The translations under genes and the position numbers were made by a program. The notes under the pieces were generated by a model. It worked only from the letters and a program-made list of their open reading frames with translations, was not told the DNA's origin and ran no database searches. From Geosiphon pyriformis (Eukaryota; Glomeromycota; Glomeromycetes; Archaeosporales; Geosiphonaceae), in the NCBI GenBank assembly GCA_016748015.1, contig JAAOMT010000468.1, forward strand, positions 474,998 through 538,997: DNA of 64,000 bases. Reading direction: 5' to 3'. Each line of letters opens with the position of its first letter. The stretch's first letter is position 1. Positions 1 through 42,470 of the stretch are shown piece by piece.

Positions 1-3000
1 CAAGAGAAAACCTTTACAAAATGGTGCGAAAGCTCTGATATTATATAGAAATTGGATTTATGTATTTATACGGAAATTTTTCTCAGAGGCGCAACCTTTT
101 AGTAGATGATAGTTTGGTTCCAAATTATCAAATCACTTTGTAAAAGAATATCGGGCCTTTTTTCGTGCTTCTTCTTTTCAATGGAAACAATCTTTATGAT
201 GGTCATCTCCGCATTTGAAAATTTCACAATACATGATCCAATATATGCTTTTAAAAAAATTAGAAATCTCACAAACCTTCATTCAGACTTCTAATTAATG
301 ATTCCCTTTTAATAATCAATAAATTTTTTTAATTTCATATTTTAAAATCTCAATTCCTCTAGGGTGAACAGCAAGCTTGCTCTCAAGACGATACCCCCAA
401 TCGGTGATCTAAATTCAGAGATGTCAGATGGCGTGCGTCTGATTCAACTTTTGGTGAGCTATCTTTGTCTCGCCCGATCACCTAAAAAGCCAATCTTCGT
501 GCCATGAAGTGTGAAGACGGTTTGATGTCTTTTTACGTTATGCTAGGTGGTTTTGGGATGTGGCATTATTAGTATAGATATTTTGAAAAAGAATAACAAT
601 AGACGATATTGGTGCGATGAAAGAGAAGCTATTTGTCGACTTTCTTTTTTATTCCGAGATTCCCATAATGAATATCTTTATAGAATTCATCGATCCTGAA
701 ATATTTCTTTAATCAATAATCAAATATTTCGATATTTTTCAATAGGAAATTATCGGAGACATATCTTTTGGCAAATATAACAAAAATCCAAGAATGCGTA
801 TTCAAAAGGTGGAAAATGTAAATAAGGCTTTAGAATTTATAAAGCATCGTAATGTTTCTCTGACTAATATTGGTGCTGAAGGTAAACTACACTATCATCA
901 AATTCAAAGGGACGAAACTAATCAATCTCTTTAATATTATCGGGATGATACAACATAAGTTTAATGAATTTCATATTTTTTCTAATATTAATTCTTGAAA
1001 TTTCTAGATATCGTTGATACCAATTTAAAACTTATACTCGGAATGATTTGGACCATTATCTTAAGATTTACAATTGCCGATATAAGGTGTCTTATAAGTG
1101 ACCTTCAATTTATTGTACCAATTTCGATTTTAAATCCTTGTCGATGGTTTTTTGTTTTATTACAGTGAAGCCGGTCTCACGGCTAAGGAGGGTCTCTTGC
1201 TATGGTGTCAACGCAAGACTGCCCCGTATTCTGATGTTAATGTACGCGACTTCACCTATAGGTATTCCGAATTGCGTATCACCTAGAAAAAATATAAAAT
1301 TTCAATTTACATTGATAAACTTTTTCCTTTTCATCAATACTAAGTTGGTCGGATGGCTTGGCTTTGTAAGTGAGGTTGTTTGATTTATTTTTAAGATTTC
1401 CATCGAATTATTTTTCAATATGAATTCATTATATGTTTTATTGAACAGTTGTGCTTTAATTCATCGACATCGTCCCGATTTACTTGATTACCACGCGTTA
1501 GACAAGGTGAATACACTTAATGAGTTAACAGCCTTGAAGTAATTTCAAGAAAATTTTTTCATTCATCAAAAATTTCTCAATCTATCCAGGGTGATCGTCA
1601 TAGGAATACCGCCCTGGCATTTGATGTTGCTCAAAAACATCTTGAAATCCCTGTAAATCAAATAATTTGATCATGATCCATTTTCTTTTAATTTGAATTC
1701 CACTTGAGATGCTGAAATGTTTTTGACATCCATAATTAGAAACTTTTGGATGTTGAGGATGTTTGCGATATTTCAAAGCCTGATGAACGTTCAATAATGA
1801 CATATGTAGCTCAATACTTTCATGCTTTTTCAGCATTAGGTAAGACTAATCATTTATCTTGGTTAGATGGTAAATAGTAGATGATATTTACATCCAATTT
1901 TGTCTCTTATAGACAAAGTTGAAATTGCCGGCCGAAGAGTAGCCAAATTTGCTGAAGTGATGCAGTCAGTTTGGGATATGGAACATGATTATGAACGACG
2001 TGTGAAAAAGGTTTGAACATATTCCAATATCCCCTCATATATCTTTCAATTTTTTATTTTCTTTGATAATCAGCTTTTTTTCTTTCACTCCCCCTCCCCA
2101 CTCCAAAAAAAAACATTCATCAGTTAATGCAAGATGTAGCCGACCGGAAATCTATTTGGGGGAATGCAAGGTTTGATAGTACCTATGCTGATGCTAAACG
2201 TCAATCGGCGGAATTTATTCAGTACAAAAGTAGCGAGAAAAGAGCTTGGGTAGCTGCTAAACGTGATCTCGATACTTTGCTCGGAAATGTTCAAACAAAG
2301 CTCAAGACTTATGGTTTGCATCCATACAATCCTCCTCCTGGACTTACATTAGCAGATTTGGATAAAGTATGGCAGGGATTATTGGCTGCTGAAGTGCAAC
2401 GTTATAAATCGATCAATGATAAAATTCGAGAGCAAGTACTTCTTTAACAAATCTCTCCATGTTTAATCATTTCATACTCACAGTCCTTAAATTTAAAAAC
2501 TTTATTTAAAAAGTATCAAGGAAAACCTACGAAAATCCTTTGCAGAGTCGGCGAACAGTTTTGTCAAAAGTTTAGACTCGATTTCCAATTCCCTGGCAAA
2601 CTTGGACGGAGAATTAGATGTGGGTTTTGGATATAAATAAAATGATTTAAGCTAGGAAAGAATTCATGTTCCTTTTTTCTTTAATTAAAAATATATAGGC
2701 ACAATTACACACTGTCAAGGGTCTTTCTGCCAAACTGGGCCCACTTGAGCAATCATTAATTCGGATTCAAGCAATAGATACGCAGTGTCGAGAAGCTAAC
2801 ATCGAAGAAAATGATTATACGGTCTTCTCTGTAGATGACCTGCAGTTTGAATTGGGTCTGGTACAACAAGCCGTCACTAAGAAATCTTCGTTCATCGAGA
2901 ATCAAGTATGTAATCTTCCTTAGGGTCTGGTAGCATGATCTTTCAAAGATCGCATCATCTCTAATCCCTTTTCCTTTGCAGATTGTTTCCAGAAATATGA

Positions 3001-3596
3001 CTAATCTGACGCCTGGCCAGCTCGAAGAATTCGAAAGTACTTTCCGGCACTTTGACAAAGATTCATCAAACACTTTAAATCTTTTCGAATTTAGCGCGGC
3101 ATTGGCCAGTTTGGGATTTTTCTATCCGGTAATTTTTTTAAATAGATTTGATAATATTCTTTTTTATTTTACTCATCTGAGCTCCTCGGTATCCTTCCCT
3201 CTAATCAATAATAAAGGAAGATGAATTGGGTAGTGTTTTCAATCAGCTTTCAGAGGGAACCGAAGAGGCTTCATTCGAACAGGTCAGGAGGAACCTTTGT
3301 AGGATATGAAATTTTCAAATCATGCAAACACATATATTGATTTTTGTTCCGATATCTAGTTTATTCTTTACATGGTCAATGTAACTGAAGATAAGACTTC
3401 TCCTGATCAACTTCGGCAATCATTCAAAGTTGTGGCCGGTGATAAACCCTATGTAACTGAGCTCGATTTAAAGAGGTCTTTATTGCCGGGTAATGTAGTT
3501 TCATATCTGAAGGAGACTATGCCGCAGAAAGAGGGTTTAGCGGAAGGTTATGATTATTCAAAATATTTAGATCAAGTTTTCCGAACTAGAAAGTAA
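1..3596 (+). CDS. alpha-actinin (actin cross-linking protein), 5' end outside window
   Basis: Alpha-actinin bundles F-actin; in fungi it acts at the cytokinetic ring and actin patches. Exons I can place: <1-23, 363-453, 746-881, 1008-1086, 1166-1261, 1345-1365, 1449-1506, 1590-1652, 1740-1839, 1913-2010, 2124-2435, 2521-2619, 2699-2905, 2982-3128, 3217-3282, 3360-3596. All have GT/AG borders and together give 611 codons in one frame, ending TAA. Two calponin-homology domains come first ([22 protein letters not shown]; second CH with [19 protein letters not shown]). A helical spectrin-like region follows, then an EF-hand with loop [12 protein letters not shown], which keeps acidic or Ser ligands at loop positions 1, 3, 5 and 12. 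The length is close to the roughly 620 residues of fission yeast Ain1, so only about ten N-terminal residues should be missing. The 21-nt exon 1345-1365 encodes WSDGLAF. Confidence 0.93.
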
Positions 3597-4193: not shown

Positions 4194-5778
4194 TCAAACA
4201 AAAATAGGCTCATGATGAATTGGTTGCACATTCTCGGACACGAAAATTTTGACGCCTTCCCGTTTGAGTTTTTCAGCGCGAACTTGGGATAAAAACTCCT
4301 CAAATAAATACTCGGTATCTTGGGGTCCTCCTTTGGCCTCAGGATGGAATTGAACAGACCGTACAGGTCTGCTAATATGTCTGATACCTTCATTTGATCC
4401 ATCATTTGCGTTAACAAAGAATTTCTCCCAACCGTTAGGCATAATGTCATCTTTGAGAGCATAACCTAGAATATTCAAATGGAATTATTTCAATCAATGA
4501 AAACAAATTTATTCAAAGGATGAAAAAACAATAAGGCATAAATTACCATGATTCTGAGAAGTGATAGAACAGTTCCCATTAGTCATATCAATGGCGGGTA
4601 CATTGTGACCGCGATTACCGAATCGTAATTTGTAAACGTCAAGCCCGGCAGCCATTCCAAGTAAAAGGTTACCCATACAAATACCGAAAATTGGTTTATG
4701 ATACGATTCCAAGGTCTTTCGAAGGATCCTTACAGTTTCAGCTGCCTTATTTGGATTTCCTGGTCCATTTGAAATGAAAAGCCCGTCAAATTGGTCAGAA
4801 ATCTTGGTAAAATCGAAATCCCATGGAAGTACCGTAACACTTGCACCACGGTTGACAAGGGAACGCAGAATATTTTGCTTAACACCACAGTCTAAAAGGT
4901 ATAGAAAGGAAAACATCAGTATTAGTTTGGGATTGAAATATATAATAAAAACACCTTTAGAAATACAAACCAATTATTGCAATTTTAATATCACCGAAAG
5001 GATTGAAGGAATATGGGACCCGAGTTGAAACCTCGGCAACAAGATTTCTCAAGTTAGGGTCAAGGAAATTTACATGCGAAATATCATCATTGAGCGCCTC
5101 CTCGCCAACATCAAGTTTCGCAAGGGTTGAGCCTTGTTCTCTTAAGATATGAACAATAGCTCTGGTGTCAACCCCAGAGATAGCAGGGACGCCATGCCTT
5201 GCGCACCAGTCCCCCAACGATTCAACGGCGGTCCAGTGAGAGTATTTTGTGGCATAGTCGTTTACGACAATGGCCTCCACTTGAATACGATCCGATTCAA
5301 AATATCGGATGAGACCATATTCATCCTTAAAGAGACCTGGTACACCATAATTACCTATTCAAAAAGTGTGCAATGATAACAATAAATAAAAGTATCTACA
5401 AATTGCCGGGTGAGAGCCATTGTCAAAATTCGAAATAAACAACCCACCAACGAGAGGCTGAGTGAAGGTTAGAATTTGTCCACGATAGGATGGATCAGTC
5501 ATGGACTCGGGGTAACCCACCAAAGAAGTAGTAAATACAGCTTCACCAGCAATTGAGCTGTGCGCACCAAAAGATGTTCCTTGAAAGATCTGACCAGTCT
5601 TTAGTTTCAAAGCAGCTGGAACTGATCGAGGAGAGCCCTGGGCATATGGCACGGCTGGAGGAGCGTGCTGAACAACACTATGATCAGTAACAGTGGCCAG
5701 ACCACGATTAAAGATCAGAGGTTTGGAGTACACTTTAGAGGAGGCCAAGAGTCGAGAAAAGGGGATTGATCGGAGCAT
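4194..5778 (-). CDS. CPA1: carbamoyl-phosphate synthase small subunit, arginine-specific type
   Basis: This is the glutaminase subunit that hydrolyses glutamine and passes ammonia to the large subunit, making carbamoyl phosphate for arginine synthesis. Exons on the minus strand are 5778-5448, 5354-4971, 4891-4547 and 4465-4194, giving 443 residues. The first ~35 residues are rich in Arg, Ser and Leu and acid-poor, suggesting mitochondrial import. The CPSase small-chain domain ([31 protein letters not shown]) precedes a class I glutaminase domain with nucleophile Cys310 (FGICMGN) and His394/Glu396 (VQFHPE). [10 protein letters not shown] and NANDGSNEG are also present. It is a stand-alone small subunit, not a CAD-type fusion, since the stop follows the glutaminase domain. 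An oddity is [10 protein letters not shown], where Leu replaces the Gln that usually lies four residues after the catalytic Cys. An attenuator-type upstream ORF lies in the leader. Confidence 0.94.
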
Positions 5779-5969
5779 TTTTTAGAGTTGGGTTAAAAAA
5801 GAGTAACTAGGTAATAATTGGTTATCTTTAGATATTACTATGAGGATGGTTTCGTATTTTTTCTGTTTTCTTGAGGAAATTATACAAGCTAAGTAGATTT
5901 GATTAATTAAGTCCTATAAAAAATATTATTCCAGTATGATAGATTTGTGATGAAAAGAAAACTCGTGCT

Positions 5970-6180
5970 TTAAAATCCGACTGTTGAAGTTTTCCAAACT
6001 GTGGCAGTGAAAGGAAAAATAAAAAATGCATGTTAATTTTCAAAATCATTTCAAATAAGAAAAGGTGAGGTTAATGTAAAGACAATAATGGGACTAGAAG
6101 GACTTTGGAGATTGGGTCTTCGTAGACGTACCTTGGTGAGCAATATAATCAGCGGCAGTAGTGTCACTATAGGGTTGCAT
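5970..6180 (-). CDS. upstream ORF encoding an arginine attenuator peptide, split by an intron
   Basis: ATG is at 6180-6178, 398 nt upstream of the CPA1 ATG. Exon 1 (6180-6132) ends CAAG before donor GTACGT. The intron is 6131-5999 (133 nt) with a pyrimidine-rich acceptor tract ending CAG. Exon 2 (5998-5970) ends TAA. Spliced, it encodes 25 residues ending in the core DYIAHQVWKTS plus TVGF. The yeast CPA1 leader peptide, also 25 residues, has DYISDHIWKTS in the same place, and the Neurospora arg-2 peptide has DYLSDHLWRA. In those fungi arginine makes the nascent peptide stall the terminating ribosome, reducing initiation at the main ORF; the Asp of this core is essential and is kept here. Without splicing the frame diverges after His-Gln and ends after 28 codons lacking WKTS. 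About 190 nt separate its stop from the CPA1 start. Homology is visible by eye; arginine regulation here is inferred. Confidence 0.85.
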
Positions 6181-11763: not shown

Positions 11764-14700
11764 CTATACATCTATATGCACAAAAACCAAATTTCCAATA
11801 CCTGAAAAAAATAGACAAAACCTACGAAACCCGAAACCAACTCCAAAAGCCTTAGCTACTCCCAGCAATCTAACCACACCAGCCAAAAACACCTTAGACA
11901 AACCAGAAACTGAAACAGGAGTGAAGCTGTCATGCGGAATCAGACTGTGCTTTTCCATAAACACTCGGTGTCTGGTGCAAACCAATTAAATGTCATCCTA
12001 AAATGCAAGACAGAATGCATACACAAAGCCCACAATCCTTTTAGTACCTTCATTAGAATCATTAAAAACCAAGACAGACTCATAAAACCACTTATCAAAA
12101 ACAAAGCCTTTACACAGAGCAACACCAATTTCAACTTCAGAAACACAAGAAGCCAAAGCCTGTAAGACACAAGAAAAAGAACAAGACAGGCCAGAAAAAG
12201 CCTCCCAAGCTGAAGCATGAGTGCCTGACAAATGAGCACGGCCAACGGCATCCTGGGGACATGAAAAGACGTGATCCGAGATCTCAACATCACCACAGAA
12301 CAGACAGACCACACTGGGGTATCTCCTATCATACAAATGCTTGCGTATAGCAACAGGAAGCCGATGATAGAGAGCCTTCATAAAGTAAGTACAACAGCTA
12401 GCTGTATGCATGCTGGTAAAACCGGATGCCAAGTGAGAATCGGGGTGCTACACCATAAAAGACTTAGACCAATTAATATCAGCGCGCAACCTATCATCTA
12501 CAATATGAGAACCCACTCCAACCTCCCAACGAGCTCGATGAACTGACTGGAAAACATCACGAACAAAGTGTCTAGAATTACCAGAAACTGCCATACCACC
12601 AGCACATAGAAAATGTTCATTGACTAAATGAGATAGGTGCCAAGCAGAAAGAGCAGCATCTTTAGCAAGTGCATCAACACGATCATTGCCTGAGACACCT
12701 AAATGACCCTTCACCTTGACCCAATTCACATCCAAATTTTTCTGACAAATGACAGTAGTAATGTGACGACGCTCAATCCAACAGCGGTTCCTGAAATCTG
12801 GACAAACCAGCGACAATTCCGACCTACACGTATCTAAAACAGCTTGGCTATCCAAGAACAAGTCAACCGAACGAGAAAAAGGAACACACTCAAGGACCAA
12901 AGCTATGGCTTGCAGCTCAGTCAGAGTAGAAGAAACCAAACCAGACACCCCAACACCCAAACCCAAGTTAATGTCCTTAAAAAAAACAGCAACACCCGCC
13001 CTCACGTCAACAGATCCCAGACCAGAAAGAGATCCATCCATATACACAGAAAGGCGGGCAGCTTCAATGGTCAGCAAAGTGTCACGAACCACACCAAAAT
13101 CATGAGAAAAATGAATGTCAGACACAGCATGACCATCTGCCAAAGAAGAACTTGAGGAGAGAGGTACAACACCACCAAGAAAGCGAATGGAGAGATCAAA
13201 CCAGAAAGGGACTGGGCCACGAGGGTCCAGCCTCTTCTAATGCTTGAAGGTTCTCCAACTGAAAACATCACCATTACAGTCACGAAGCTGTTCCATGAAA
13301 GCAATCTCATAACACCTGAGCGAAAAAAAAACAGGAATCATCTAGAACCAAAGACATAGGAGTATCACACCGACAATGAAAAGCACAAGCCAGAGGGCCC
13401 CCCAAAGACAAATCACACCCGGAAAAAATACGGACCACACCAGCCAAAAAATTATTTGAGGGACTAACACCAACACAAGCCAGAAACAGTAAGGGATGAC
13501 GAGGATGCCAGCTGAGAATCTGGAGGTTATGAGACCTATGTGAAAACAAGCAACCCAAGACACTAGTGGAATTTGCAAAAGCAATAATAGAGGCCGATTT
13601 ACTCTCAGCCTGGATTTGTTCGAAAGTCTTTAGATTGTACAGAAAGGGATGATGAAGTGTATCACTGGAGAAATCACATGGCAACCCAGACTTGGACTTA
13701 AAGATCTTGCATACCAAAGTGTCCTATTTACTACAAACACCCAAAGAAATGAAATTGAACTGAGTCCTGTAGCTGATGATAGGGAAAAGAACCACAGACA
13801 CCAAATATGCATACTGTTTGTCCGAAATTGCCTTTCTCAAAACAAGATTCACAAAAAACTGTACATCAGCCTAAGCTTTAGCCAAACTAGACCTCAAAAG
13901 ACCCCCAGAAGACAAAAAAATACCCAAATAGCGATGAGATTCCTCTTTCTTGGCAATAAAAATAGGCACGCCACTGATAGTTAAACGAAAGTCCAATACC
14001 TGACAGTTGATAGAAATGGCTACTGTCTTGTCGTTATTCACAGAAATGTCATTGAACCTGAAAAACTCACTAGCAATATCAAGAATGTGTTGTATAACAG
14101 CCTGGCTACTACCAACCAAAATAGTATCATTGACGAAAGCACCAGCAGTAAGAAACAAAGTTAGTCTAGCACGAGAATCTACTCGGCCTGTTTTAGAAAC
14201 AAAATAAGAATTCAACTTGTAGTCCCATACACTCTCCTGCCTCTTGACCTCGCACAAAAGTAAATCATAAAAAATACGCCAGAGAAGAGGCGAGAAAACT
14301 TCTCCCTGATCCAGCCCATTGTGGACACAATACCCATCAGTTAAACCAAAGTCAGTCATTACTCTGTTGACGTGACCATTGTGAATACTGCCAAAAAATC
14401 TAATAAACCTGTCACACATTTTGATCCTGACCAAACTCCTTCTAAGATGTTTCCAACCAACTGAGTCATAAGCCTTGCACATGTTCTGTAAAACCAGCCA
14501 AAGTTTACGGTTCTTCTTCAAGGCATCCTCAACCACAGAACCGACAGCAAAAATGAGAGACTGCATCATCGTACCTTTCAAAACTGAAAAATTGTCTCCA
14601 CGAAGAACATCAAAAGTGCTGCAAGCCAAAGAGATCCTATCTAAAAGGATTTTGAAGAGAATCTTGTGGGCCGTTTCAATTAAAGCTATAGGACAGGTGT

Positions 14701-16441
14701 TTGTAAGAACTCCCTCCCAATCATATGGTTTAGGAATCATCGAGACCCAAGCTTCCCTCCAAGGCCCAGGAACCAATTTGCCAACCAGACAGAAATTTAA
14801 GAGCACCAAAAGCATATCCAAAACAGATTTGTCACAATGTTTTCACAATTCGTTGGAGATACCAAAAAAACCAGCCGCTTTTCCATTAGGAAGATTTTTA
14901 ACAACAGCTGACAACTCATCAAAACTAATCGAGCACATGACATCAGAGAAAGCACCATCAAACATGTAATTCAGAGGCTGAAATTGATGAACCCAATCCT
15001 TAGAGAAGTCAGACACCACCTCATGTTTTCTGGTCCATCTCTCCATAATTTTGTCCATCTTGGACTTAACCAAATCAGGCTCCAAAATCAACTCTTCTTT
15101 TACAACCAGATGATTTAAGACCACCTTGCAAAAAAGATGCTTCAAAACATTTCTAATGGTGTGACCCTTGTTCAGCTCAAAACTCTCCATTCTTTTACCA
15201 ATAGCCTGCTTGATTGAGGATTCTTCAGCACACTTGGATTCCAAAAATTTCAAAGAGCGGTATGATTTCCTTGCTTTGGCTAGCACAGAATGAATAATAT
15301 CAAAATTAAAACCTGAAAAAAACAGAGACTTAATCTTTGATGCACCAGGAGAGTCAAGTCTGTGCCATACCTCCAACAAAGAAGCAAAACCATTACTTGA
15401 AGCCAAACACGAAGCCTTAACCAACTTAAAAACCAGCAGCTCCAGTTTGTGAAACCTAGAAGAAGTCCTAGTAAACACGCCGTCAAAACCTTTGAACCAT
15501 TTTTTCTTGAATGTACTATCCGCTGAAAGAACCATGATTTTGCGAACAATATCCCACATAGTGTCCACATCTGAAAATCTCACTGCCACATCAAAAGCAT
15601 CTGAGAACATAGAGACATTAGCAGCTGAAGCATCCTTGAACTCCAACCACCTAGCATCATCGGCACCTTTGACGTCAAACTTCTAACAATCTCTATTCGC
15701 CTGCTTGCGAAGAGAATTCAAGCGCATATCCAAGAGCCCGCCCAAACCCAAATTCACTGAAACAGCTTGATGGTCTGTGTCAAAATGCTCACTGACATTC
15801 AAAACCTTATGATGCACTATTGCATTGACAAGACATGAGGAGACAAACACATAATCAATTACTTTCGTAACACCCTTAAAATTTTCCCAAGTGGACATTT
15901 TCGCAGCCGGGCTACCAACTAAAGAATTGACCAGACCCAAATCAAAATATCTTTTGAAACTTGCACTTTTATGAGAACTGTCTTCATTAAAATCACCTCT
16001 GAGAATGACGAAAGAAGATTCATTAACAGCCTTTGCAATAAGAGAATTAATCTCATCAGCCTGAGAAAACTGTACCACCGAAGAAGTACCAGTGTAGAGC
16101 CCCAGAATTGACACTGAGAGCTTATTCTTAAAAAGCAATCTAACAGACAAGAGCCGACCAGGCACTTCAGAAACTCTACACACATGCCTTGCCAAAGAAA
16201 AGTCCATAACAACTGCCACATCAGCACCCAGATAACCAGAATCCAAACCAGAGGAAAACACCCAAACACCATCAAACTTGTTGGCGATCCAGAGACGAAT
16301 CTTATCTCTCAACTTTGTCTCAGTAAAAATAGAAACCAAATTTCCCATGTTCTTGTGCCAACGAACTATATCTTCTTGTTTCGCAGGAATGTTCATGCCT
16401 CGAACATTACACATAGCAACCTTCCAAATCAAACCAGTCAT
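11764..16441 (-). pseudogene. LINE B ORF2 (APE endonuclease, RT, RNase H, zinc finger), inactivated
   Basis: The APE-type endonuclease fills 16441-15683: CNVRGMN, FTETKL, GDFNED, VIDYVF and DTDHQAV give the usual Asn, Glu, Asp and His set. RT spans roughly 15600-13300; its catalytic box reads AFVNDTILVG, so one Asp of FVDD is lost. RNase H (YMDGSLSGLG, LTELQAIALVLE, FLDSQAVLD, VKVKGHLGVSGND) covers 13143-12600, and the finger CLFCGDVEISDHVFSC lies near 12310-12270. In-frame stops include 15683-15685 (TAG), 14843-14845 (TGA at the Trp of NELWKHCD), and TAG at Trp in the KRLDP motif near 13240 and in LVWHPDSH near 12446. One frameshift lies in the T-run near 13320-13330. Confidence 0.88.
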
Positions 16442-17943
16442 TGAGAAGATGAGAAAACCGAAGAACCCAAATCAGAATACAACATATCCAGCCTTGCCAA
16501 AACTGAGCCGATTGATGCATCTAAAGCCATCAACTTTGACTCTAAACCACCAACCTTGGCAGTTAGAACCTTCAAACTACTGGAACCAAAATCAAGATTA
16601 ATATCATCAACAATAGGGCAAAGAGAAGGAGAGGTCACCAACGGAACATCCAGTGCCATATCCAAATCCACGCATGAGGCCAGAGAAGCAGACACAACGG
16701 AATGAGAGGTGAGAAAAAAAGACTCCGAAGATACCACCTCAACACAACTCAGCTTCTTTGCAATGACAGAAACTCGGTCTGTCAAAAACTCCAAAGAGCA
16801 TTCCAAAAATGCCAGCCGACTGTATAAACTAGAGATATTAAAAGGGGAGGATTCTACTGAGGCAGATTCTGCACCGAAACTTGCACCAACAAAAAAAGAA
16901 CCCAAAGAAACCACACGAGAGGAAGTGCTACTAGCAACTTGGGCCCATGTCTTGCCACCAAAGGAAACTGGGTAAGTGATAGGAGCCTGCTTTCTCCTAT
17001 ATACATTAGCCAGACAAACCCGATCCTGAGAAGTTACCACCTGTCTACTGCAAGCACCAGAATTCTTACTCATAGAACAAATATCAGAAACATGACTGAA
17101 TTGTTTGTACACTGTACAACAAGCTAAAGATAGACCAGCCCAATGCAAACTTACACCCTTGAAAACCAGAACCGAACCAATAGCAGCCAACTTGGATGCC
17201 TCACTCTCAAAACAGACCACAGCACACTGATCATGAACATATGAAGATGGATTACAGCCAATAAAACAAGTTTTCCCATCATAAGCCCCCACCAATTCAG
17301 ACAAATCATGGGCAGTGGTGCCAACTGAAAGAGTGTAAAGCAATGCCCAATGCTGATCCCTAAATATCCACGTTTGTTTATCATCAATAGCCTTTGTCAC
17401 ACGAACAGAATCTTTTCCCACCAAAACAGACCATCTAGCTGCGACCAAATCGGCCATCTCCAATAACTCAAATTCTACTAGGGCCTTTTGCCAAAGACCA
17501 ATAAGCTGCATCTTGATTGATACAATTTTTCCAAATTTAGAAAACACTGTCTCAACTGCAGATTTGGGAAGATCAACAGGGATCTCCTTGATTATCACCT
17601 TCTGATCTGAATGACTGTTTACCTTTCTGAGATCATTATTTACCATGATTTTTTCACAGATCACCAACTCTCTGACCTTAACCAAACTAGACTCATTCGT
17701 GAAAGTTGATCTAATGACTCCAGGAAATTTTGAGGGAGTTGAAGCACCCCCAAAACCGTCAATTTTATAAAAAATCTTTTTGATCTTAAATAGCTTATCA
17801 CTATTTAACTTTTCAGGCACAGCTGACAACTCCACATCCAAAGCAAAAGATTTTACTGGCTCGAAACGATGACACTCTAAACCACGTGACTTGGGCGGCG
17901 GCAACTGATTGGACTCAACAAACGTGTAAGGAGGAAGCTTCAA
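16438..17943 (-). CDS. LINE B ORF1, 5'-truncated (RNA-binding gag-like protein)
   Basis: An open frame of 501 codons without internal stops. The N-terminus is missing: the frame opens at the truncation point with no ATG. Near residues 115-190 is an RRM-like fold (VIIKEIPVDLPKSAVETVF, FGKIVSIKMQLIG, QKALVEFE). Near residues 280-295 is a degraded CCHC knuckle in which the second Cys is lost (CTVYKQFSHVSDIC). Next come the family block FGGKTWAQVA and a C-terminal part with weak heptad character that may be coiled coil. LINE ORF1 proteins bind their own RNA; that role is inferred here. The stop TGA overlaps the ORF2 start in ATGA (16438-16441). Confidence 0.8.
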   Translation of the reverse strand: MKLPPYTFVESNQLPPPKSRGLECHRFEPVKSFALDVELSAVPEKLNSDKLFKIKKIFYKIDGFGGASTPSKFPGVIRSTFTNESSLVKVRELVICEKIMVNNDLRKVNSHSDQKVIIKEIPVDLPKSAVETVFSKFGKIVSIKMQLIGLWQKALVEFELLEMADLVAARWSVLVGKDSVRVTKAIDDKQTWIFRDQHWALLYTLSVGTTAHDLSELVGAYDGKTCFIGCNPSSYVHDQCAVVCFESEASKLAAIGSVLVFKGVSLHWAGLSLACCTVYKQFSHVSDICSMSKNSGACSRQVVTSQDRVCLANVYRRKQAPITYPVSFGGKTWAQVASSTSSRVVSLGSFFVGASFGAESASVESSPFNISSLYSRLAFLECSLEFLTDRVSVIAKKLSCVEVVSSESFFLTSHSVVSASLASCVDLDMALDVPLVTSPSLCPIVDDINLDFGSSSLKVLTAKVGGLESKLMALDASIGSVLARLDMLYSDLGSSVFSSSQ

Positions 17944-21678: not shown

Positions 21679-22289
21679 NNNNNNNNNNNNNNNNNNNNNN
21701 NNNNNNNNNNNNNNNNNNNNNNNNNNNNNNNNNNNNNNNNNNNNNNNNNNNNNNNNNNNNNNNNNNNNNNNNNNNNNNNNNNNNNNNNNNNNNNNNNNNN
21801 NNNNNNNNNNNNNNNNNNNNNNNNNNNNNNNNNNNNNNNNNNNNNNNNNNNNNNNNNNNNNNNNNNNNNNNNNNNNNNNNNNNNNNNNNNNNNNNNNNNN
21901 NNNNNNNNNNNNNNNNNNNNNNNNNNNNNNNNNNNNNNNNNNNNNNNNNNNNNNNNNNNNNNNNNNNNNNNNNNNNNNNNNNNNNNNNNNNNNNNNNNNN
22001 NNNNNNNNNNNNNNNNNNNNNNNNNNNNNNNNNNNNNNNNNNNNNNNNNNNNNNNNNNNNNNNNNNNNNNNNNNNNNNNNNNNNNNNNNNNNNNNNNNNN
22101 NNNNNNNNNNNNNNNNNNNNNNNNNNNNNNNNNNNNNNNNNNNNNNNNNNNNNNNNNNNNNNNNNNNNNNNNNNNNNNNNNNNNNNNNNNNNNNNNNNNN
22201 NNNNNNNNNNNNNNNNNNNNNNNNNNNNNNNNNNNNNNNNNNNNNNNNNNNNNNNNNNNNNNNNNNNNNNNNNNNNNNNNNNNNNNNNN
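21679..22289. other. assembly gap (611 N) flanked by T40 and A48 homopolymers
   Basis: N bases run from 21679 to 22289. A run of 40 T precedes the gap (21639-21678), and a run of 48 A lies shortly after it (22303-22350). The rest of the Spo12-like gene is probably inside. The homopolymers may be real or a product of gap extension. Confidence 0.95.
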
Positions 22290-27466: not shown

Positions 27467-29265
27467 ATGAAGAAGGCTACCAAAGTTTTTGGTTCTGAAA
27501 GTGGTTTTAAGACGATTGCATCGAGGAAAAAGAGAAAGAGTAGTGTATTGGCAAAGAGTGTTGATAATAGTAAGGTTGCTGATAAAGCTCTTGGTAATTG
27601 TTCATGGGATTCTGAAGCGGGTAACACTACTGAATCTGAGAGTATTGACATGGAGGAGGAGTGCTTGGTTGAGGAAACCAGTGTTGACTATGGTGAGAAT
27701 AGTGCTTTCGCAGAAGAGGATCCTGATCAAATGCCTAAGAGTTTGCGTGTAAAGACCAAGAAGGTGTTAGGGAAGCCTCTGAGTATGATTGATTATGGTA
27801 CTGTCAATATAGACGATGATGTGTTAGATGGTTTTTTCCTTCTCCCACCCCTTTTGCCTATCAAACTGTTCATTCAAGTGCCTGTTTGCAAGTCCTTTGC
27901 TTTGGATATTGATCTCATGGCTGTTGCTGAGAAATCATCTCAGGAGAAATTGAACTTTGTCAGAAAAATTTTCTCAGGTGTGAATGGTTTTGGGGGGCCT
28001 CTGCTCCCTCAAAATTTGGTGGAATTATCCGGGCATCTTTCACTTCCAAAAAGGCAATGATGGCAGCTGCTCAATTGGCAAATGATCATGGTGTTGTGGT
28101 AAACACCAATCTTAAGTGTCCCATCAACAATCGTATGAATCGGGCAATTGTGTTGAAAAAAATTCCTGTGGGAACTTCCATCGAAGCAGTGCATGCAGCC
28201 ATTTCTGAATTTGGGCTTATTAAGTCGATTAAAATGCAGTTGGTGAATCTATGACAAAAGGCGATCATCGAATTAGAAGATCAAATTCAGGCTGATCTCT
28301 TGGTGGCTAAGTGGTCTGTCCTTATTGGAAAAAATGCAGTGCATGTGATCTGAGCTGATGTTAACAAACAAATATGGGACACCAGAGATGAGTTCAGGGC
28401 TTTGCTTTACACTCTTCTTATGGGCACCACTGCTCATGATCTTTGGAACTTCATTGGTTTGGTTGGTGGGAAAACATGTGTTATTGAATGCAGTTCTGTC
28501 AGTTATGTCTAAGCACGCTGTGCTACTGTGTGCTTCGATTCTAAGAGTAGCCTTATTCAGGCAATGGCAAACACTCCTGTTATAAAAGGCATTGGTCTTC
28601 ATTGGTTTCATTTGACTGCTGCACTGTGCTCAATTTGCAGAAATTCCAGTCATACTTCTTTTGCTTGTCATACTGCTAGTGCATCTTCAAGTCCTAGGAG
28701 CAAGAGAGCTTCTCTCTCAGCTCAGGATCAGCTCTGTCTGGCTAAAATATATGAAAAAAAATCTGTTCCCGTTTCCCACCCTTTGGCTTTCAGTGGAAAA
28801 ACCTGGGCCTCTGTGGTTGGTAAACCACTTCTATTAGCGTCATTTAGTGGTTCAGCTTAATCTGGTTCTGTATTTTATGGTAAACCTCTCCCGACTGTTA
28901 GTGGTGAATTGGAAGACTGTTTGAAGAATATTGAGAGCAGTCTTGTCAGCCTCGCAGGACAAATTGGTGAGTTGGCTAAGAGGTTAGACTCATTCGTGCT
29001 GGCAGTTTCCCAGCCTAGTCTTGGATGTCAGCTGCCAGTGACCTTCCCATCACAGAATCAAGGGGAGGATATAGTGATGGGAGTGGATTCGGATGATACC
29101 ACTAGTAACAAGACTGCTGCCATTATAAGTTCAACTGCCTCACCTGAGGTTGTGAAATTGGAAAACATGTTGAAAGGTCTCTCTGCTTTGGTCATGAGCC
29201 TATCGGCACACTTGGATGATTTGGCTTTAGCAGGTGGTGTTCTTCCTTTACCTCTTTTTCAATGA
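27467..29265 (+). pseudogene. LINE C ORF1 (RRM-like and CCHC protein), inactivated
   Basis: The frame is a Ser/Glu/Lys-rich N-terminal third (to about 27870), then KSFALDIDLMAVAEK, shared with other copies, then an RRM-like segment (AIVLKKIPVGTSIEAVHAAI, FGLIKSIKMQ, KAIIELED). A complete CCHC knuckle CSICRNSSHTSFACH lies near 28631-28675, followed by FSGKTWASVVG. A one-base shift lies in the G6 run near 27992-27998. In-frame stops include TGA at the Trp of the LWQKA block (about 28252) and TGA near 28350. The true start may be a little upstream of 27467. It ends in the ATGA overlap with ORF2 at 29262-29265. Confidence 0.82.
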
Positions 29266-32200
29266 GTGGTCTGGTGTGGAAAATTGCTACATGTAATGTT
29301 CATGGGTTGAACAATCCTGCAAAGCAAGATGATGTCATTTGTTGGCATAGGAATATGGGCAATTTAGTTTCTATTTTCACTGAGTCAAAGCTTAAAGGGA
29401 AAGTTCGTCCGTGGTTGGCCAACAAATTTGATGGTGTTCGGGTTTTTACTTCTAGTCTGAATTCTGGTTCTTCAGGTGCTGGGGTGTTAATTGTCATGAA
29501 TTTTTCTTTGGCAAGGCACATTTTCAAGGTTTCTGAGGTGCCCGGCCGGCTCCTCTCTATCAGACTTCTCTTCAAAAATAAACTTTTGGTTTCTGTTTTG
29601 GGTCTCTATGCTGGTGCCTCTTTAAGTGTCCGATTCTCACAGGCTGGCGACCTCAATTCTTTGATTGCTAAGGTGGTAAATGAATCTTTTTTTGTGGTCT
29701 TGGGTGGTAACTTCAATAAGGATGGCATTCGTAAGAGTGCCAGTTTCAAAAAGTGCTTTGATCTGGATCTGGTTAATGTCTTGGGTGGAAGTGTACTTGC
29801 AAAGACACTGACATGGGGTAACTCTTGTGGTGTTGTCAAGACCATTGACTATATGTTTGTCTCTTCGAGCTTGGTTAATGCTGTGGTGGATCATGGTGTG
29901 ACTGGAATTGAGGACTTTTTTGATACTGATCATAAGGCTGTTTCTGTTTCTGTGGGTTTGGGTGGCTTGCTTGACTCTCAGCTAAATTTGATATGCAAGC
30001 AGGCTAATAAAGATTGTTGAAAGTTTGATTTTGGGAATGCTGGTGAGAAAAGGTGGAACAATTTTAAGGATGCTATGTTGGTTAATGGCCTAATGTTCTC
30101 GAGTGATTTTGCTGCTTCTGTGGAATTTTCAGATTTGGATGCTATGTGGGACATTGTATACAAAGTAATGGTTTTTTCAGCAGTTGAAACATTCAAAAAG
30201 AAATGGTTTAAGGGTTATAATGAGGTTTTTACCAAGAGTTCTTTTAGGTTTTACAAGCTTGAGTTGCTGGTATCCAAGCTGGTTAAGGCATCTTGTTTGT
30301 TGTCTAGTGTGGAATTTGTGTCATTGTTAAATACATGGGAGAAGTTCGATGTCAATGGTGCTTTGGTGGTAAAGTCTTTATTTCTTTCAAGCTCCAGTTT
30401 TGAAAGGATTTGCTCAGCTCTGGCTAAGACAAGGAAGTCTTACCACTCTGCTAAGTTGCTGGAATCCAAACGTGCTAAGGAATCCTGTATTAGAGTGGCT
30501 ATTAATAGAAGAATGGAAAGTTTCAAATTAGACAAGAGTCACACTATTAGGAGTGTTTTGGAGCATCCCTTTCACAAAGTGGTACTGGATCATCTGGTTG
30601 TAAGTGATGAGTTGATTTTAGAGTCCAGCTCAGTCAAGGCTAGGGTGGATGGGATTATGGAAGGCTGGACCAGGAAGTGCAAGGTGGTGCCAGATATCTC
30701 CAATATTTGGTCTCGCCAGTACAAGCCTTTGGAGTATGTTTTTGATGGTGCATTTTCTGGTGTAATGTGTCCTGTTGATTTCAATGAGTTGTTCAGTGTG
30801 GTTTCTGGTCTGCTTGAGAGCAAGACTGCTGGTCTTTCTGGGATTTTGAACAAGCTCTGGAAACACTGTGACAGATCAATTTTGGACATGCTTTTGGTGC
30901 TTTTAAATTCTTGTTTGATTCATGAGTCAATACTTAGTGCTTGGAAAGAAGCCTGGGTCTCAATGATTCCTAAGCTGTATGAGTGGGAAGGAGTTCTTAC
31001 AAACACCCGACCTATTGCCTTGATTGAAATTGCTCACAAGATTCTTTCAGATAGGATCTCATTGGCTTGTAGTACTTTTGATGTTCTGTGTGGGGACAAT
31101 TTTTTGGTTTTAAAAGGTATGACAACACAGTCTCCCATTTTTGCCATTGATTTGGTTATTGAGGATGCTTTGGAGAAGAATCGTGGGCTCTGGTTGGTCT
31201 TGTAAGACATGTGGAAGGCTTATGATTCTGTTGGGTGGGAACACCTTCAGGACAGTTTGGTTAGGATAAAAATGTGTAGCAGGTTCATTAGGTTCTTTGG
31301 CAGCATCTACAGTGGTCGCGTTAACAGAGTTATGACGGATTTTGGTTTGACAGATAGGTATGTGGTGCATGATGGCTTGGACCAGGGGGAGGTGTTCTCA
31401 CCACTCCTCTGGCACATATTTTATGATCTTCTTTTGTGTGAAGTTAAGAGACAGACAGATGGGTGTGACTATAGATTGAATTCTCATTTTATTTCTAGAT
31501 GTGGTCATGCTGAGTCTCAGGCTAGTGTATCTTTATTTTTCGCAGCGGGTGCCTTTGTTGATGATACTATATGGGTTGGCAGCAGTTAAAGTGCCATACA
31601 ACACATTCTCAATATTGCTAGTGAATTTTTCAATATCAATAACATCTCGATTAATAATAATAAGACTGTTGCCATTCCCATCAATTGTGATGGTATGGCT
31701 TTCTCTTTGCTGATCAGTGGGTCATCTATTTCTATTGCCAAGAAGGGGGAATTGCATCGCTATTTGGGGATTTATTTGTCAACTGAGGGTCTTTCGAAGC
31801 CTAGTTTGGCTAAAGCGCATTCTGATGTCCGGTTTTTTTCTAATTTAGTCCTGAAAAAGGCAGTATCTAATAAGCAACTTTTATATTTGGTTTCGGTGGT
31901 TCTCTTTCTTATCATTGGATATAGAACACAGTTCAGTTATATTCCTATTAGTTCTTGTAGAAAGTGTGACACTTTGATTCGTAAGGGCTTGAGATCTAAG
32001 TCTGGTTTGTCACATGATTTCCCTAATAATGCAATTCATCATCCTTCTCTGTATGGTTTGAAGACTTTTGAGCAAGTTCAAGCTGAGAGCAAGTTGGCTT
32101 CAGTCATTTTTTTTGCGAACTCTGTTGGGATTTTGGGGCGTCTATTTTCTCACCGGTCACATGATCTGCAGGTCTTCTACTGGTGCCCGCTACATCCGTT

Positions 32201-33938
32201 GCAGTGTCTGGTTCGTGTCAAAGTCAATTCTCTAAACAATTTTCTGGCGGGTGTGGTGCATATTTTTTCTGGGTGTAATTTGTTATTGGGTGGCTCTCTG
32301 ACTAGTGCTTTTTGTTGTCAGGATGGAACCCCTATGTTTCTTGTTCTTGGTGAATCAAATTATGTCAAGAGTGTCTCTTCACTTCAGCATTATGGGATTG
32401 CTTTCATAGACCAGCTACAGGACCAAAATGGGACTGTTTTCGAGTGGAAGACCTTCAAATAGTGGAAGCGGTTAGACCCACATGGTCCAGTTCCTGTCTG
32501 ATTTGAGCTGTCAGTTTGTTTTCTTGGTGGCGTGTCTTCTCTTCCTGTCTGCTCCACGCTTTTGGCTGATCACGGCTCTTCGGATGTTCTTCAGTCTCAT
32601 GAATTTGGCATCATTGGCGCCAGTTTATTCAATTCTAATGTTGGTTGTTTTTCCATTTACACAGATGGATCTCTAAGTGATTTAGGGACTGTTGATATGA
32701 AAGCTGGGGCTGCTGTTTTCTTTGAGAACATTGGTATGGGTTTGGGTGTAGGGGTATCTGGTTTGATGTCTTCTATCTTGATGGAACTGCAGACTATTGC
32801 TCTGGCACTTGAGTGCATCCCTTCTTCTTGCTCAGTCGACTTGTTCTCAGACAGTCAGGCTGTTTTGAATGTTTGCAGATTGGAAATAGAATTGGTTCAC
32901 CCAAATTTTAGGAATTGGTGTTGGATTGAACACCACCATATTGTTAATGTCATTCGTCGTAAGAATTTAAAAGTTAATTGGTATAAGGTAAAAAGATACT
33001 CAGGGGTTTTAGGCAATGAACGAGCTAATAAGTTGGCCAGAGCTGCAGCTCTCTCTGGTTGACATCTGCCCTATTCTGTTGATGAACGCTATCTTAGGGG
33101 TGGGAGAGCAGCCATTTCTGGTAATTCTAGACATTTTGTTCAGGATATTTTTTGGTCAGTTCATCATGCACATTGGGAAATCAGTTGTGGTATAGGGGTG
33201 GTGGCGGATAGTCTGCGTACAGATATTGATTGGTTTAGATTGTCACTGGTTTGACATCCAGATTCTCACATGGCTGCTGGCTTCACTAGCAAGTGAACTG
33301 CTGGTTTTTGGACTTACTTTATGAAAACATTGCACCATCAGCTCCCTGTTGCCATGCATAAGCGGCTTTATAATAAGTGATACCCCAGTGAGATGTGTTT
33401 GTTTTGCAGTGATGTCGAGATCTCAGACCATGTGTTTTCTTGTTTATTTGATGCCAATAGTCGTGCTCAGTTGTTGGACACTCATGCAGCAGTTTGGGGT
33501 GTGCACTCTAGTTTGGTTCATTCTTCCTCAGGTGTCTCGCAGCTGATGTCTACTTGTGTATCTGACATTTCAGTTAGTACTGTTCTATGCAAAGGTTTTG
33601 TTTTCAAGGATTGGTTTTGTGAGTTTGTTTCTGTCTTCAAGGGTTCCAGGATAGCGGATCAGAACATTGTGGCCTTTGTGCATAAGTTTAGCTTGGCTTT
33701 TTGGGAAGACATTTGGTTGGTTCACGCCAAGCACTGTGCTTTTATGGAAAAAAATAGGCTTATTCCATGCGATGGGTCAGTTCTTGTCTCAATTTCTGGG
33801 CTTTCTTTAGGGCTGTCATCTGGTGTGACTCAGCTGCTGGGAGTTGCTAAGATGATTGGTATTGGTTTTGGATTCCGTAAGTCTTGTTTGTTTTTTTCAG
33901 GCATAAGGGATGAGGTTTTTGTTCATATAGGTGCTTAG
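29262..33938 (+). pseudogene. LINE C ORF2 (APE endonuclease, RT, RNase H, zinc finger, C-tail), one frame with nine stops
   Basis: 1559 codons including the stop stay in one frame with no indel. The endonuclease occupies 29262-30017 (CNVHGLN, FTESKL, IDYMFV, DTDHKAV). RT runs about 30080-32460 with an intact catalytic box AGAFVDDTIWVG near 31550. RNase H is 32640-33060 (YTDGSLSDLG, MELQTIALALE, FSDSQAVLN). The finger CLFCSDVEISDHVFSC is near 33396-33443, and the C-tail ends DEVFVHIGA. Stops at 30018 (TGA), 31203 (TAA), 31587 (TAA), 32460 (TAG), 32499 (TGA), 33060 (TGA), 33252 (TGA), 33294 (TGA) and 33378 (TGA) make it non-coding unless recoded. At least five replace a Trp conserved in other copies and two replace Gln. 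GGNFNKD replaces GDFNED, losing the catalytic Asp of the endonuclease. Confidence 0.9.
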
Positions 33939-37784: not shown

Positions 37785-40700
37785 CTACACATCTATAACT
37801 ACCCGCACACTGCCACCCAGACCAGAAAAGAAACAAAAAGGCTTCCGACGACTAAAGCTAACAGCAAAGAAATTGGCCAAACCAAGCAATCTCACAACAC
37901 CATCAGACAAAACCAAAGACACACCACAAGGGAGCCCAGAAACAACACCAACATCACAGACCAGACCAGCCTTCTCCATCACCACCCAGTGGCTGGCTCT
38001 AGCCAACCATACCTTAGCACGATGTAAACCAACAACGAACCTAACATAATCAACAATCCTAGCAGTGGCCACTTTTCTATCCTCAAAAACATCGCAAGCC
38101 TCCTCATACTACTCCTTCAGCACAAACCCTTTGCACACCAAAGTGTACAGTCCAACATCAATGGAACATTGAGACAAAACCTGCAACACAGCAGAAGCAG
38201 AGAAACCACCAGCCAAAGCTGACCAACGAGCAGAAGCCTCCGCCAAAATCTCACCACAAATGCCAGACTCATGAACATAAGTAAAAATGTGGTCAGAGAA
38301 CTCCACCTCACCGCAAAACAAACACAACACACTAAGGTAGCATTTATCATACAACCTCTTTCTAATGGCCACCGGCAACCTCCTGTGCACAGCCTTCATA
38401 ACATAAGTGCGAAGCGATGAGGATGCGCGGCTAGTGAACCCAGCAAGCATATGAGAATCAGGATGCCACACTTTTGCCGTGACAACCCAGTCTATGCAAC
38501 CAATCATCGCATCTGGAACCACATCACAACCAGGCCCAGCTTCCCAACGAACACAACGAATTGATCGAAAAATATTCCTGACAAAATGATGGGCATTACC
38601 AGAAACAGCGACACCCTCAGCAACCAAAAAATGTTCACGCACATCGGCACAAAGGGAAAAGGGAGACCCAGAGACAGCCCCAGCAGCCAAGTCAGCTTTC
38701 ACATTACCAGGAATTCCAGAGTGTCCCTTCACCTTAACCCAACTCACACTGAGATCCTTATCCCTGACCAAATTGAAAATATGACACCTTTCCAGCCAGC
38801 ATTGATTACGAAAATCAGGAGCAACCAAAGACATCTCAGACACACATGCGTCAATGGCAACCTGGCTGTCAAGACGCAACACCACAGTACTTGAAGAAGG
38901 AACACACTCCAAAGCCAAAGCGACAGCCTGTAACTCAGCCTTAGTAGATGACAAAAGACCACGAACAGCGACACCAATACTCATATCCAAGACCGGAAAG
39001 TACGCAGCAGCACCACAGGTGACCTCAGCAGAGCCTGCATTCCTCAAAGACCCATCCATGAAAACTTCAAAAGAGTCTGACCAAATGTCATGCAACCCAT
39101 CCTTAACTGCAGAAAATACTCCAGACCCCAAAATGTCCAAACCAAGCTTTTCTGCAGAGCCAACAGAACCAGAAAATGAGTAACCCTGATCTTTCAAAAA
39201 CTCAGAAGAAACCACGAACCAGTAAGGCACAGGGCCACGCAGATCCAACCTCTTCCAACGACGAAAAGTTTTCTAATCCAACAAAACACCTTTCTTATCA
39301 AAAAGCCGATCACCAAAAGCGACACCAAAACGTTTAAGAGATTTGACCGAATCAAAATACAGAGACTTTCCAAGAACAGAGGACAACAGGAACTGACCAA
39401 GACTACGAAATGCAGTGGGAAGGTTGTTCACCAAAGTAAGCTCATTGCCCAGAAAGATCTTCACCATCCCAGCCAAAAAATTGTTCACTGGACTAACATG
39501 CAACCTGACCGGAAACTGCAAAGGATCCAAAGGAGCCCAACCAAGAACCTGTAGGTCCAAAAACCTATGTCTAAACAAACGCCCAAGAATGCCAAAAGCA
39601 TTAGAGAACGCCATCAAAGCAGCAACCTTCCTTTCAGACTGCACCTGCTCAAAAGGCTTTAGGCCATACAATGAGGGATGATGCAAAGCAGTGTCAGGAA
39701 AATCATGGAGGAGACAAGCCTTAAACCTAAGACCCTTTCTAACCAAGACATTCCACTTGTGACAAACATTAGATAAGACAAAACTGAACTGAGTATGATA
39801 GCCAACAATAGGCTGCAAAACAGCTGACATCAGATACGAGAATTGTTTGTCTGTAATAGCCTTCTTAAGCACAACATTGATGAAGAAACGTACATCTGCA
39901 TGAGCCTTGGCAACACTCGGCTTGGAGAGCCTCTCAGTCGACAGAAAAATACCCAGATACCGATGTGCTTCCCCTTTCTTGGCAATAGAGATTGGCTGAC
40001 CACAAATGTTCAGTGAAGCAACTTTAATGCCTTGATTGATGGGAATAGCCACTGTCTTCTCACTATTGATAGAAATATCATTGATCACAAAAAATTCACT
40101 GGCAATGTTCAGAGCATATTGAGTAGAAGCCTGACAATTTCCAACCCAGATCGTATCATCGACAAACGCACCAGCCAAAAAATACGATGTCAAACCACTA
40201 TTGCCCTCAATTCTGCCAGATTTCGAAACAAACTTAGTATCAATCCGGTACCCACACAATTGTTTGTGCTTTTTAACCTTACACAAAAGCGGATCGTAAA
40301 AAATCCTCTAAAGAAGTGGCGAAAAGACCTCACCCTGGTCCAGCCCATCATGCACCTTATAACCACCAGACAAACCAAAGTCAGTCATCACCCTATTAAC
40401 TCTATCCTCATGAATACCACCAAAAAACCTTATGAACCTCTCACACATCTTGACACGCCATAAACTAGCTCTTAAATGATGCCACCCAACTGAATCGTAA
40501 GCTTTCCGCATATCTTGCAAGACCAACCATAACTCCCTATCCTTCTCAATGGCATCCTCAATTACCGAACTGACAGCAAACACTGGAAATTGCGTTGACG
40601 TACTCTTCAGCACCGAAAAGTTGTCATCCTGAAGAACATTGAACTTGCTACAAGCTATTAAAATACAGTCAGACAGAATCTTGGAAAGAATCTTCCTGGC

Positions 40701-42470
40701 AGTCTCAATCAAAGCAATGGGCCGAGTGTTTGTAAGAACTCCATCCCAGTCATAAGGCTTAGGAATTATAGACACCCAAGCTCTCTTCCACAAAACAGGC
40801 ACCACACCACCCAACAAACATTTATTAAACAGTGCCAACAGACACCCCAAAACTACCTCACCACCATGTTTCCATAATTCATTAGGAACACCAGACAAAC
40901 CAGCAGCCTTGCCATTAGGAAGACCACCAACAACAGAAAGTAACTTGCCCATACTGATTGCACTCATAACACCTGAAAAAGCATCATCCCGAACATAGTC
41001 CAAAGGCGCGTACTGACAAGCCCAAAGATCAGGAAGCACTGACTGCACAGAGCATTTCCTCGTCCACCCCTCCATTATTCCATCCACACTGGACTTCACC
41101 TCTTCAGGCAACAAAACCAGATCATCATCAACTATCAAGTGATCCAACACAACCTTGTGAAAAGACTTTTCCAACACACTCCTGATCATACTACCCTTAT
41201 CTGAACAGAAATTATCCATGCACTTCTTAATCATCTTCCTAACCAAAGCTTTCTCAGCCAACTTTGACTCAAACATCTTTGACCTCCTATAATCTCTATG
41301 AACCAATGACAAATGTCTAACAACAACATCAAATTTAACACCCGAGCCAACCAAATCCTTGAAAGCATGAGCCTTTGCGTTATCCAGAGTCGACCATTTA
41401 CTCACAAGACGATCAGTGCCCAGCAAGTCACCAGAGCAAAATTTCTTGACAATCTTGGCCACCAACAATTCCAGACCAAAAAACCTAGAAGAATGTTTGT
41501 TTCTCGAACACTTGAATTCACTAAACCAATGCCTCGAAAATGTCACATCAGCAGAATCCACCACAGCTCCCACCAGAACTGCCCACATAGCATCCACATC
41601 ACCACGTATTTCGGCACCAGAAAACACCTCACCCAAAAACAAAAGTTTAGCTGATGAGAGGTCTTTAAACTTAGCCCATCCAACACAGTCAGCATTCCTG
41701 ATTTTGAACTTTCAATGATCTTTATTCGCCTGCTTGTGCAAACTGTTCAATTGTACATTTAGAAGCCCACCCAAACCGACTGAAACCACAACTGCCTTGT
41801 GATCAGTGTCAAAAAAATCTGAAACAGAGACAACTTGATGACCAGCAACAGCAGAAGACAAATTACCACCAACAAAAATGTAATCAATCGTTTTCCCAAC
41901 CCCTTTCGAATTGCTCCACGTATAAGAATTAGCCAAATGATGACCAACAAATGAATTGACCAAACCCAAACTCAAACAAAACTTGAAACTAGCATTTCTA
42001 CCAGATCCATTCTCATTAAGGTCCCCACCCAAGACAACAAAATTGCTGGAATTGACTGTCTTTGCAATGAGGGTGTTAACTTTAGAAGCCTGACCAAATT
42101 TAGCCCCAGAAGAGGCACCAGCATACAACTCCAAAACAGTAACCAAGAGCTTGCTCTTAAACAGGAGCCGAACAGAAATAACCCGACCAGGAATCTTCTC
42201 CACCTTAGATACATAATGGGCCAAAGAAGTGTTCATAACAATCGCAACCCCAGCACCCATAAAACTCTTATCCAAGCCAGAAGAAAATACTCGCACTCCA
42301 TCAAACTTATCCTTTATCCACGGCCCAGAAGAGGATCTCAACTTAGTCTCAGTGATAAAAAAAACCATATTTCCCGAGTTCACATGCCAACAAACAACAT
42401 CCGCTTGTTTCGCAGGAACATTGATACCCCGAACATTGCACGTAGCAAATTTCCAAACCAAACTACTCAT
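37785..42470 (-). pseudogene. LINE E ORF2 (APE endonuclease, RT, RNase H, zinc finger, C-tail), four Trp-to-stop changes only
   Basis: 1562 codons in one frame. The endonuclease has CNVRGIN, ITETKL, GGDLNENG, TIDYIFV and DTDHKAV. RT has an intact AGAFVDDTIWVG near 40150 and GLDQGEVFSPLL. RNase H has FMDGSLRNAG, KAELQAVALALE, RLDSQVAID and VKVKGHSGIPGNVKAD. The finger is CLFCGEVEFSDHIFTY, with its last Cys changed to Tyr. The tail ends RVVIDV. The only in-frame stops are 41712-41714 (TGA), 40308-40310 (TAG), 39273-39275 (TAG) and 38109-38111 (TAG), and each falls on a Trp seen in other copies. It is one G-to-A step per stop away from a full protein. Confidence 0.9.

Follow-up and report, generated by a model that had tools for sequence, protein, structure and literature searches.

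The fungal arginine attenuator peptide (AAP) is described as stalling ribosomes at the stop codon of its own upstream open reading frame (uORF) when arginine is in surplus, which lowers synthesis of the CPA1-type subunit (PMC7969011). The same source reports that a single change in the peptide, D13N, abolishes the arginine response, and that the yeast CPA1 uORF has an inefficient start context (PMC7969011). Outside Ascomycota, the uORF of the CPA1 homologue of the basidiomycete Cryptococcus (CND01050) is reported to be AAP-type, to show strong ribosome occupancy and to be sensitive to nonsense-mediated decay (NMD); decay of the yeast, Neurospora and Cryptococcus homologues is likewise reported (PMC7049704). 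A similar principle, in which a nascent peptide and a small molecule together stall the ribosome at a uORF stop, is described for the mammalian MAGDIS uORF of AdoMetDC, which responds to polyamines and differs from the locus considered here in peptide, ligand and target gene (PMC4505036). Here we analyse 64,000 nucleotides of contig JAAOMT010000468.1 of the glomeromycotan Geosiphon pyriformis (Archaeosporales), hereafter the window, and a candidate AAP-type uORF on its minus strand, upstream of CPA1.

We judge it probable that the Geosiphon CPA1 leader carries an attenuator-type arrest-peptide uORF that is split by an intron and would be formed only after splicing. A preliminary description of this DNA had proposed an arginine attenuator uORF of CPA1 in a glomeromycotan, and its exon coordinates, 133-nt GT-AG intron, codon count and peptide all held on reanalysis. 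On the minus strand, positions 6180-6132 and 5998-5970 join into 25 codons that encode MQPYSDTTAADYIAHQVWKTSTVGF and end in TAA (Table 1). We call this uORF attenuator-type because of its position at CPA1, the core of its peptide, a sole, sub-cut-off Pfam match, the AUG order of the leader and an intron that appears usable. The downstream gene is complete, with four exons running from 5778 to 4194, and its 443-residue product matches TIGR01368, the small subunit of carbamoyl-phosphate synthase (CPS), with an E value of 5e-130. Judged from the DNA sequence, the uORF would lie in the leader of an arginine-specific CPS small-subunit gene.

The peptide was compared with the AAPs of Saccharomyces CPA1 and Neurospora arg-2. 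These peptides have 24-25 codons, a D-Y-[IL]-x3-[ILV]-W-[KR] core and a distance of 7 from Asp to Trp. The Geosiphon peptide has the same Asp-to-Trp distance; its D, Y and W, together with a T three residues ahead of D, align with both references, and it keeps the KTS of the yeast peptide. It is, like them, a short peptide with the conserved Asp-Tyr and Trp at fixed spacing. The seven identities with yeast across 11 core positions that had been counted previously are correct, and the Asp that had been called essential is aligned in both references. The total length does match that of the yeast peptide, as had been stated, but there is a shift inside it: 10 residues stand before Asp, as against 12 in yeast, and 7 follow Trp, as against 5 in yeast and Neurospora, so that the stop does not fall five residues past Trp. 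The Geosiphon peptide further departs from the two references in reading AHQ for SDH, in having an intron just before Trp and in scoring below the Pfam cut-off.

One reading of these differences is that the uORF is real and inert towards arginine, a relic or divergent attenuator that would exert constitutive repression only. The four of 11 core positions that differ from yeast, the two additional residues of the tail and the low score against the family's hidden Markov model (HMM) would all fit such a uORF, whereas the retention of Asp, Tyr, Trp and KTS at the exact Asp-to-Trp distance would not; moreover, the retained Asp is the residue whose change is reported to abolish the response (PMC7969011). 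We consider an arginine-inert uORF improbable.

When the spliced peptide was scanned against 24,736 Pfam models, the sole family matched was Leader_CPA1 (PF08252), at 11.8 bits and an E value of 0.17. The same scan matched zero families with the unspliced uORF frame, and zero with the peptides that would arise from acceptors at 5967 and 5961. The curated (gathering) cut-off of the family is 18.5 bits, which the Geosiphon peptide does not reach; the yeast and Neurospora peptides reach 58.8 and 56 bits, respectively. Because this cut-off was tested and the peptide falls below it, we call the peptide AAP-type and do not file it as a member of the family. A six-frame search of the 124.7-Mb assembly (406 contigs) with PF08252 matched just two places, both unrelated and on other contigs, with scores of 13.9 and 13.7 bits. 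This search did not return the uORF, which bears out the earlier statement that a single-frame scan of open reading frames (ORFs) misses it. Among control genomes, a sub-cut-off match to PF08252 was present in 1 of 14. The Leader_CPA1 score is by itself unremarkable; what counts, in our reading of the sequence, is its occurrence in the CPA1 leader.

How often such a peptide would arise by chance was estimated from all ORFs of 16-40 codons, either uninterrupted or split by a single GT-AG intron of 50-250 nt. The 1-kb leader yields 69 distinct candidate peptides, among which the uORF peptide has the top core score (48; runner-up 26). None of 126 1-kb pieces of the window reached this score (best 34); these pieces were cut from both strands of the first 63 kb, and their boundaries happen to split the uORF. 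One of 1383 dinucleotide-shuffled leaders did reach it, with a score of 49, and a Gumbel estimate from the leader shuffles is 2.6e-4. A strict pattern, DY[ILVM]xxx[ILVMF]W[KR], which was written after the peptide had been seen and was taken from the family core, is matched in the window by the uORF and by no other of its 30,746 candidates, and in 156 shuffled windows by seven of 4,582,767 candidates. From the shuffles one would expect 0.045 occurrences in a window and about 1e-4 in a leader. A looser pattern is commonplace, with 2 occurrences in the window and 1067 in the 156 shuffled windows. By the shuffles, the Gumbel estimate and the strict pattern, the resemblance in this leader goes beyond chance.

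It is nonetheless conceivable that an ordinary AT-rich leader has a spliced frame that mimics an attenuator, and that CPA1 is controlled in some other way. Such a coincidence would accord with a family score that is bettered at two unrelated places of the same genome, with the single shuffled leader that attains the core score, with the expectation of the strict motif per window and with an acceptor that scores weakly on the splice matrix described below. It would have to explain, however, why the match falls in precisely the leader expected to carry the family, and there in what becomes the last AUG frame before CPA1 once the leader is spliced; why a pattern so rare per leader occurs here; and why the best donor of the leader stands exactly where it is needed. 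We regard a chance origin as quite unlikely.

The arrangement of start codons favours an attenuator-type uORF. No ATG is present at 5969-5779 or at 6448-6181, and in the spliced leader CPA1 has no closer upstream AUG frame than the uORF. Its start context, CACCACATG, has C at -3 (CACCACAUG), whereas the CPA1 start context, TAAAAAATG, has A at -3 (UAAAAAAUG). A purine at this position is reported to be typical of the most-translated Cryptococcus genes (PMC7049704). The weak uORF context set against the A at -3 of CPA1 suits a uORF that would be bypassed at low arginine, and in its inefficient start context the uORF resembles that of yeast CPA1 (PMC7969011). The GC content of uORF exon 1 is coding-like, at 0.449 compared with 0.441 for the CPA1 coding sequence and 0.27 for the upstream kilobase. 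Among the 1354 segments of 49 nt from 7180 to 5779, 59 reach the GC content of exon 1, and all but 3 of these overlap it. A genome-wide search for exact copies of the motif at the end of exon 1 found this single place and no second copy.

The signals of the uORF intron were set against those of introns in CPA1 itself and in chaperonin and proteasome genes of this genome. A strict set of 39 was obtained from 42 adjacent exon pairs (14 loci), of which 36 gave a single solution and 6, with none or several, were dropped; the 3 CPA1 introns were then added. A matrix set of 32, in which one residue of slack was allowed, comprises 29 of 34 pairs (5 dropped) and the 3 CPA1 introns. Single or non-adjacent matches were left out of the reference introns, as were C362:560081-560512, which has no intron-sized gap, and three of five C401 matches. 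Some of the automatically placed reference junctions may be wrong.

By this comparison the donor, AAG/GTACGT, is excellent: at 10.0 bits it ranks top of 19 GTs between 6300 and 5779 and is level with the best of the 32 reference donors. The acceptor at 5998 gives a divided picture. It is the first AG past an AG-free zone of 93 nt, which surpasses the corresponding zone of 38 of the 39 reference introns, and its pyrimidine tract (86%) is above those of all 39; the branch-point-like TTAAC lies 34 nt upstream of it. Eleven AGs lie at least 45 nt past the donor, and from 5998 alone does the Trp core arise. Several features weigh against its use. On the 8+1-base matrix the acceptor, TGCCACAG/T, scores 1.2, under all 32 reference acceptors (lowest 2.1), and it ranks 19th of the 21 AGs in the leader, whereas a TAG at 5913 scores 7.1 and would yield a 19-residue peptide that lacks Trp. 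Its CAG is of a type used by 4 of the 39 reference introns, and the intron, at 133 nt, exceeds all 39 (63-121 nt). The AG-free-zone comparison is itself aided by this length, and 4 of the 39 references hold no other AG. The consensus splice sites of the preliminary description therefore stand for the donor but only in part for the acceptor, which falls below every reference on the short matrix, though it ranks near the top for pyrimidine tract and AG-free zone. We read the 133-nt stretch as a usable intron, with some doubt over its acceptor; this reading is not proof of splicing.

Regulated alternative splicing, through retention of the intron or a choice of 5998 versus 5980 or 5913, might select a stalling or a non-stalling uORF. 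This is compatible with an attenuator-type uORF. The remaining 10 acceptors tested all remove the Trp core, 5998 is weak on the short matrix where 5913 is strong, and the intron is longer than its references, all of which would suit such a choice. Conversely, the richest pyrimidine tract and the long AG-free zone both lead up to 5998 as their first AG, and retention adds two purine-context AUGs and so offers no simple relief of repression. Regulated selection of this kind seems to us rather unlikely.

The likely consequences of each form can be read from the leader. The preliminary description had suggested that splicing could switch the arginine response, and the unspliced frame does lose WKTS. 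In the retained intron, however, there are two further AUGs, 6049 with G at -3 and 6031 with A at -3, from which a uORF of 48 or 42 codons would run to 5903 and should repress and not relieve. Retention would therefore cause arginine-independent repression or decay; it should trade arginine-responsive control for arginine-blind repression, not turn CPA1 on. Splicing to the acceptor at 5913 or at 5980 would produce Trp-less peptides of 19 residues and remove both intronic AUGs with the intron, and would be a cleaner way of losing the arginine response than retention. One could envision a splicing-licensed sensor, in which regulated retention or acceptor choice makes the leader arginine-blind, either repressed via the intronic AUGs or open via a Trp-less peptide, and in which the longer tail makes the ribosome arrest while still elongating, two codons short of the stop. 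We offer this as a long shot.

For the attenuator-type uORF that we favour, the following mechanism may be proposed. After splicing, scanning ribosomes would initiate at the uORF inefficiently, owing to the poor context of its AUG (CACCACAUG). At high arginine, the nascent peptide would stall the ribosome at or near the uORF stop and block scanning to CPA1, and the stalled uORF would probably expose the mRNA to NMD. The decay arm is possible because the genome encodes a UPF1 domain. At low arginine, ribosomes would bypass the uORF by leaky scanning, or translate it to its end, and would start at the CPA1 AUG (UAAAAAAUG), which is better placed and comes next in the spliced leader. If the geometry of arrest is fixed relative to Trp, the longer tail may mean that arrest falls two codons before the stop, in elongation. 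We infer the transcription start, splicing, translation, arginine-dependent stalling and decay from the DNA.

Other searches of the peptide and leader were negative. A sequence search of PDB with the spliced peptide gave no match. When folded, the unspliced leader RNA (6210-5778) did not stand out: its z value was +1.5, and 92 of 100 shuffled sequences folded equally well or better. A simple pattern scan found no GCN4/CPC1-type sites in the 1.5 kb upstream of CPA1.

Table 1. Features of the CPA1 locus of Geosiphon pyriformis, in window positions
Feature	Position	Strand	Details
uORF exon 1	6132..6180	-	ATG to first base of Val17 codon; MQPYSDTTAADYIAHQ + G; GC 0.449
uORF intron	5999..6131	-	133 nt; GTACGT...CCACAG; phase 1, one base into the codon before Trp
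Putative branch point	6032..6036	-	TTAAC; resembles TTAAT/CTAAT of reference introns
uORF exon 2	5970..5998	-	Remainder of Val17, WKTSTVGF, stop TAA
uORF stop to CPA1 start	5779..5969	-	191 nt; zero ATG
Unspliced uORF frame	6094..6180	-	28 codons; TAG inside intron; without WKTS
48-codon uORF, intron-retained form only	5903..6049	-	AUG 6049, second in-frame AUG 6031; purine at -3 in both
CPA1 exon 1	5448..5778	-	Start context TAAAAAATG
CPA1 exon 2	4971..5354	-	
CPA1 exon 3	4547..4891	-	
CPA1 exon 4 and stop	4194..4465	-	

The CPA1 translation is 100% identical, over its full length, to the hypothetical protein G9A89_013466 of Geosiphon pyriformis, and among the best 120 of 7999 candidates the named runner-up is from Ambispora gerdemannii (79% identity). 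The N-terminus appears to resemble a mitochondrial presequence. An RGLATV stretch within it is common to several glomeromycotan homologues. Two predicted homologues, P0069 (Dentiscutata) and P0085 (Gigaspora), both lack one 22-residue stretch, probably an exon missed in those annotations. For Ambispora CPA1, 42 stretches of genome contigs matched a pattern and none was confirmed, with none in viral contigs; for Geosiphon CPA1, five stretches of viral contigs matched a pattern, again with none confirmed.

Elsewhere in the window, coding pieces at 2127-3224 (plus strand) are convergent with CPA1, and one of them has EF-hand-like, sub-cut-off Pfam matches; they look like parts of an alpha-actinin-type gene. 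Several degenerate copies of non-LTR retrotransposons, with endonuclease, reverse transcriptase and RNase H ORFs, lie at 38109-42470 (minus), 13871-17943 (minus) and 29262-32462 (plus), and overlap for the most part with regions of the window that are richer in GC. The assignment is based on Pfam matches for three ORFs of the 38-42 kb copy and on similar translations for the other copies. A run of 611 Ns, flanked by homopolymers, occupies 21679-22289 and would be either a gap in the assembly or sequence that was withheld.

The attenuator uORF is a known kind of element. What the Geosiphon locus likely adds is an example from an early-branching glomeromycotan, with an intron that interrupts the arrest motif midway. 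Our search of the open literature for the arginine attenuator in mycorrhizal fungi returned nothing beyond a large review; most subscription papers lie outside this scope, and we do not claim absence in print. An arrest-peptide uORF that is broken by an intron eludes both single-frame scans and the curated HMM cut-off.

If the proposed uORF is real and was vertically inherited, the attenuator uORF would date back at least to the divergence of Glomeromycota from Dikarya. Arbuscular mycorrhizal (AM) fungi are described as turning inorganic nitrogen into arginine for transport towards the plant, and Geosiphon, a host of nitrogen-fixing cyanobacteria, as representing the ancestral AM fungus (PMC8401276). 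Since AM fungi ship nitrogen as arginine, a feedback of arginine on the synthesis of carbamoyl phosphate would have direct consequences for nitrogen flow in the symbiosis.
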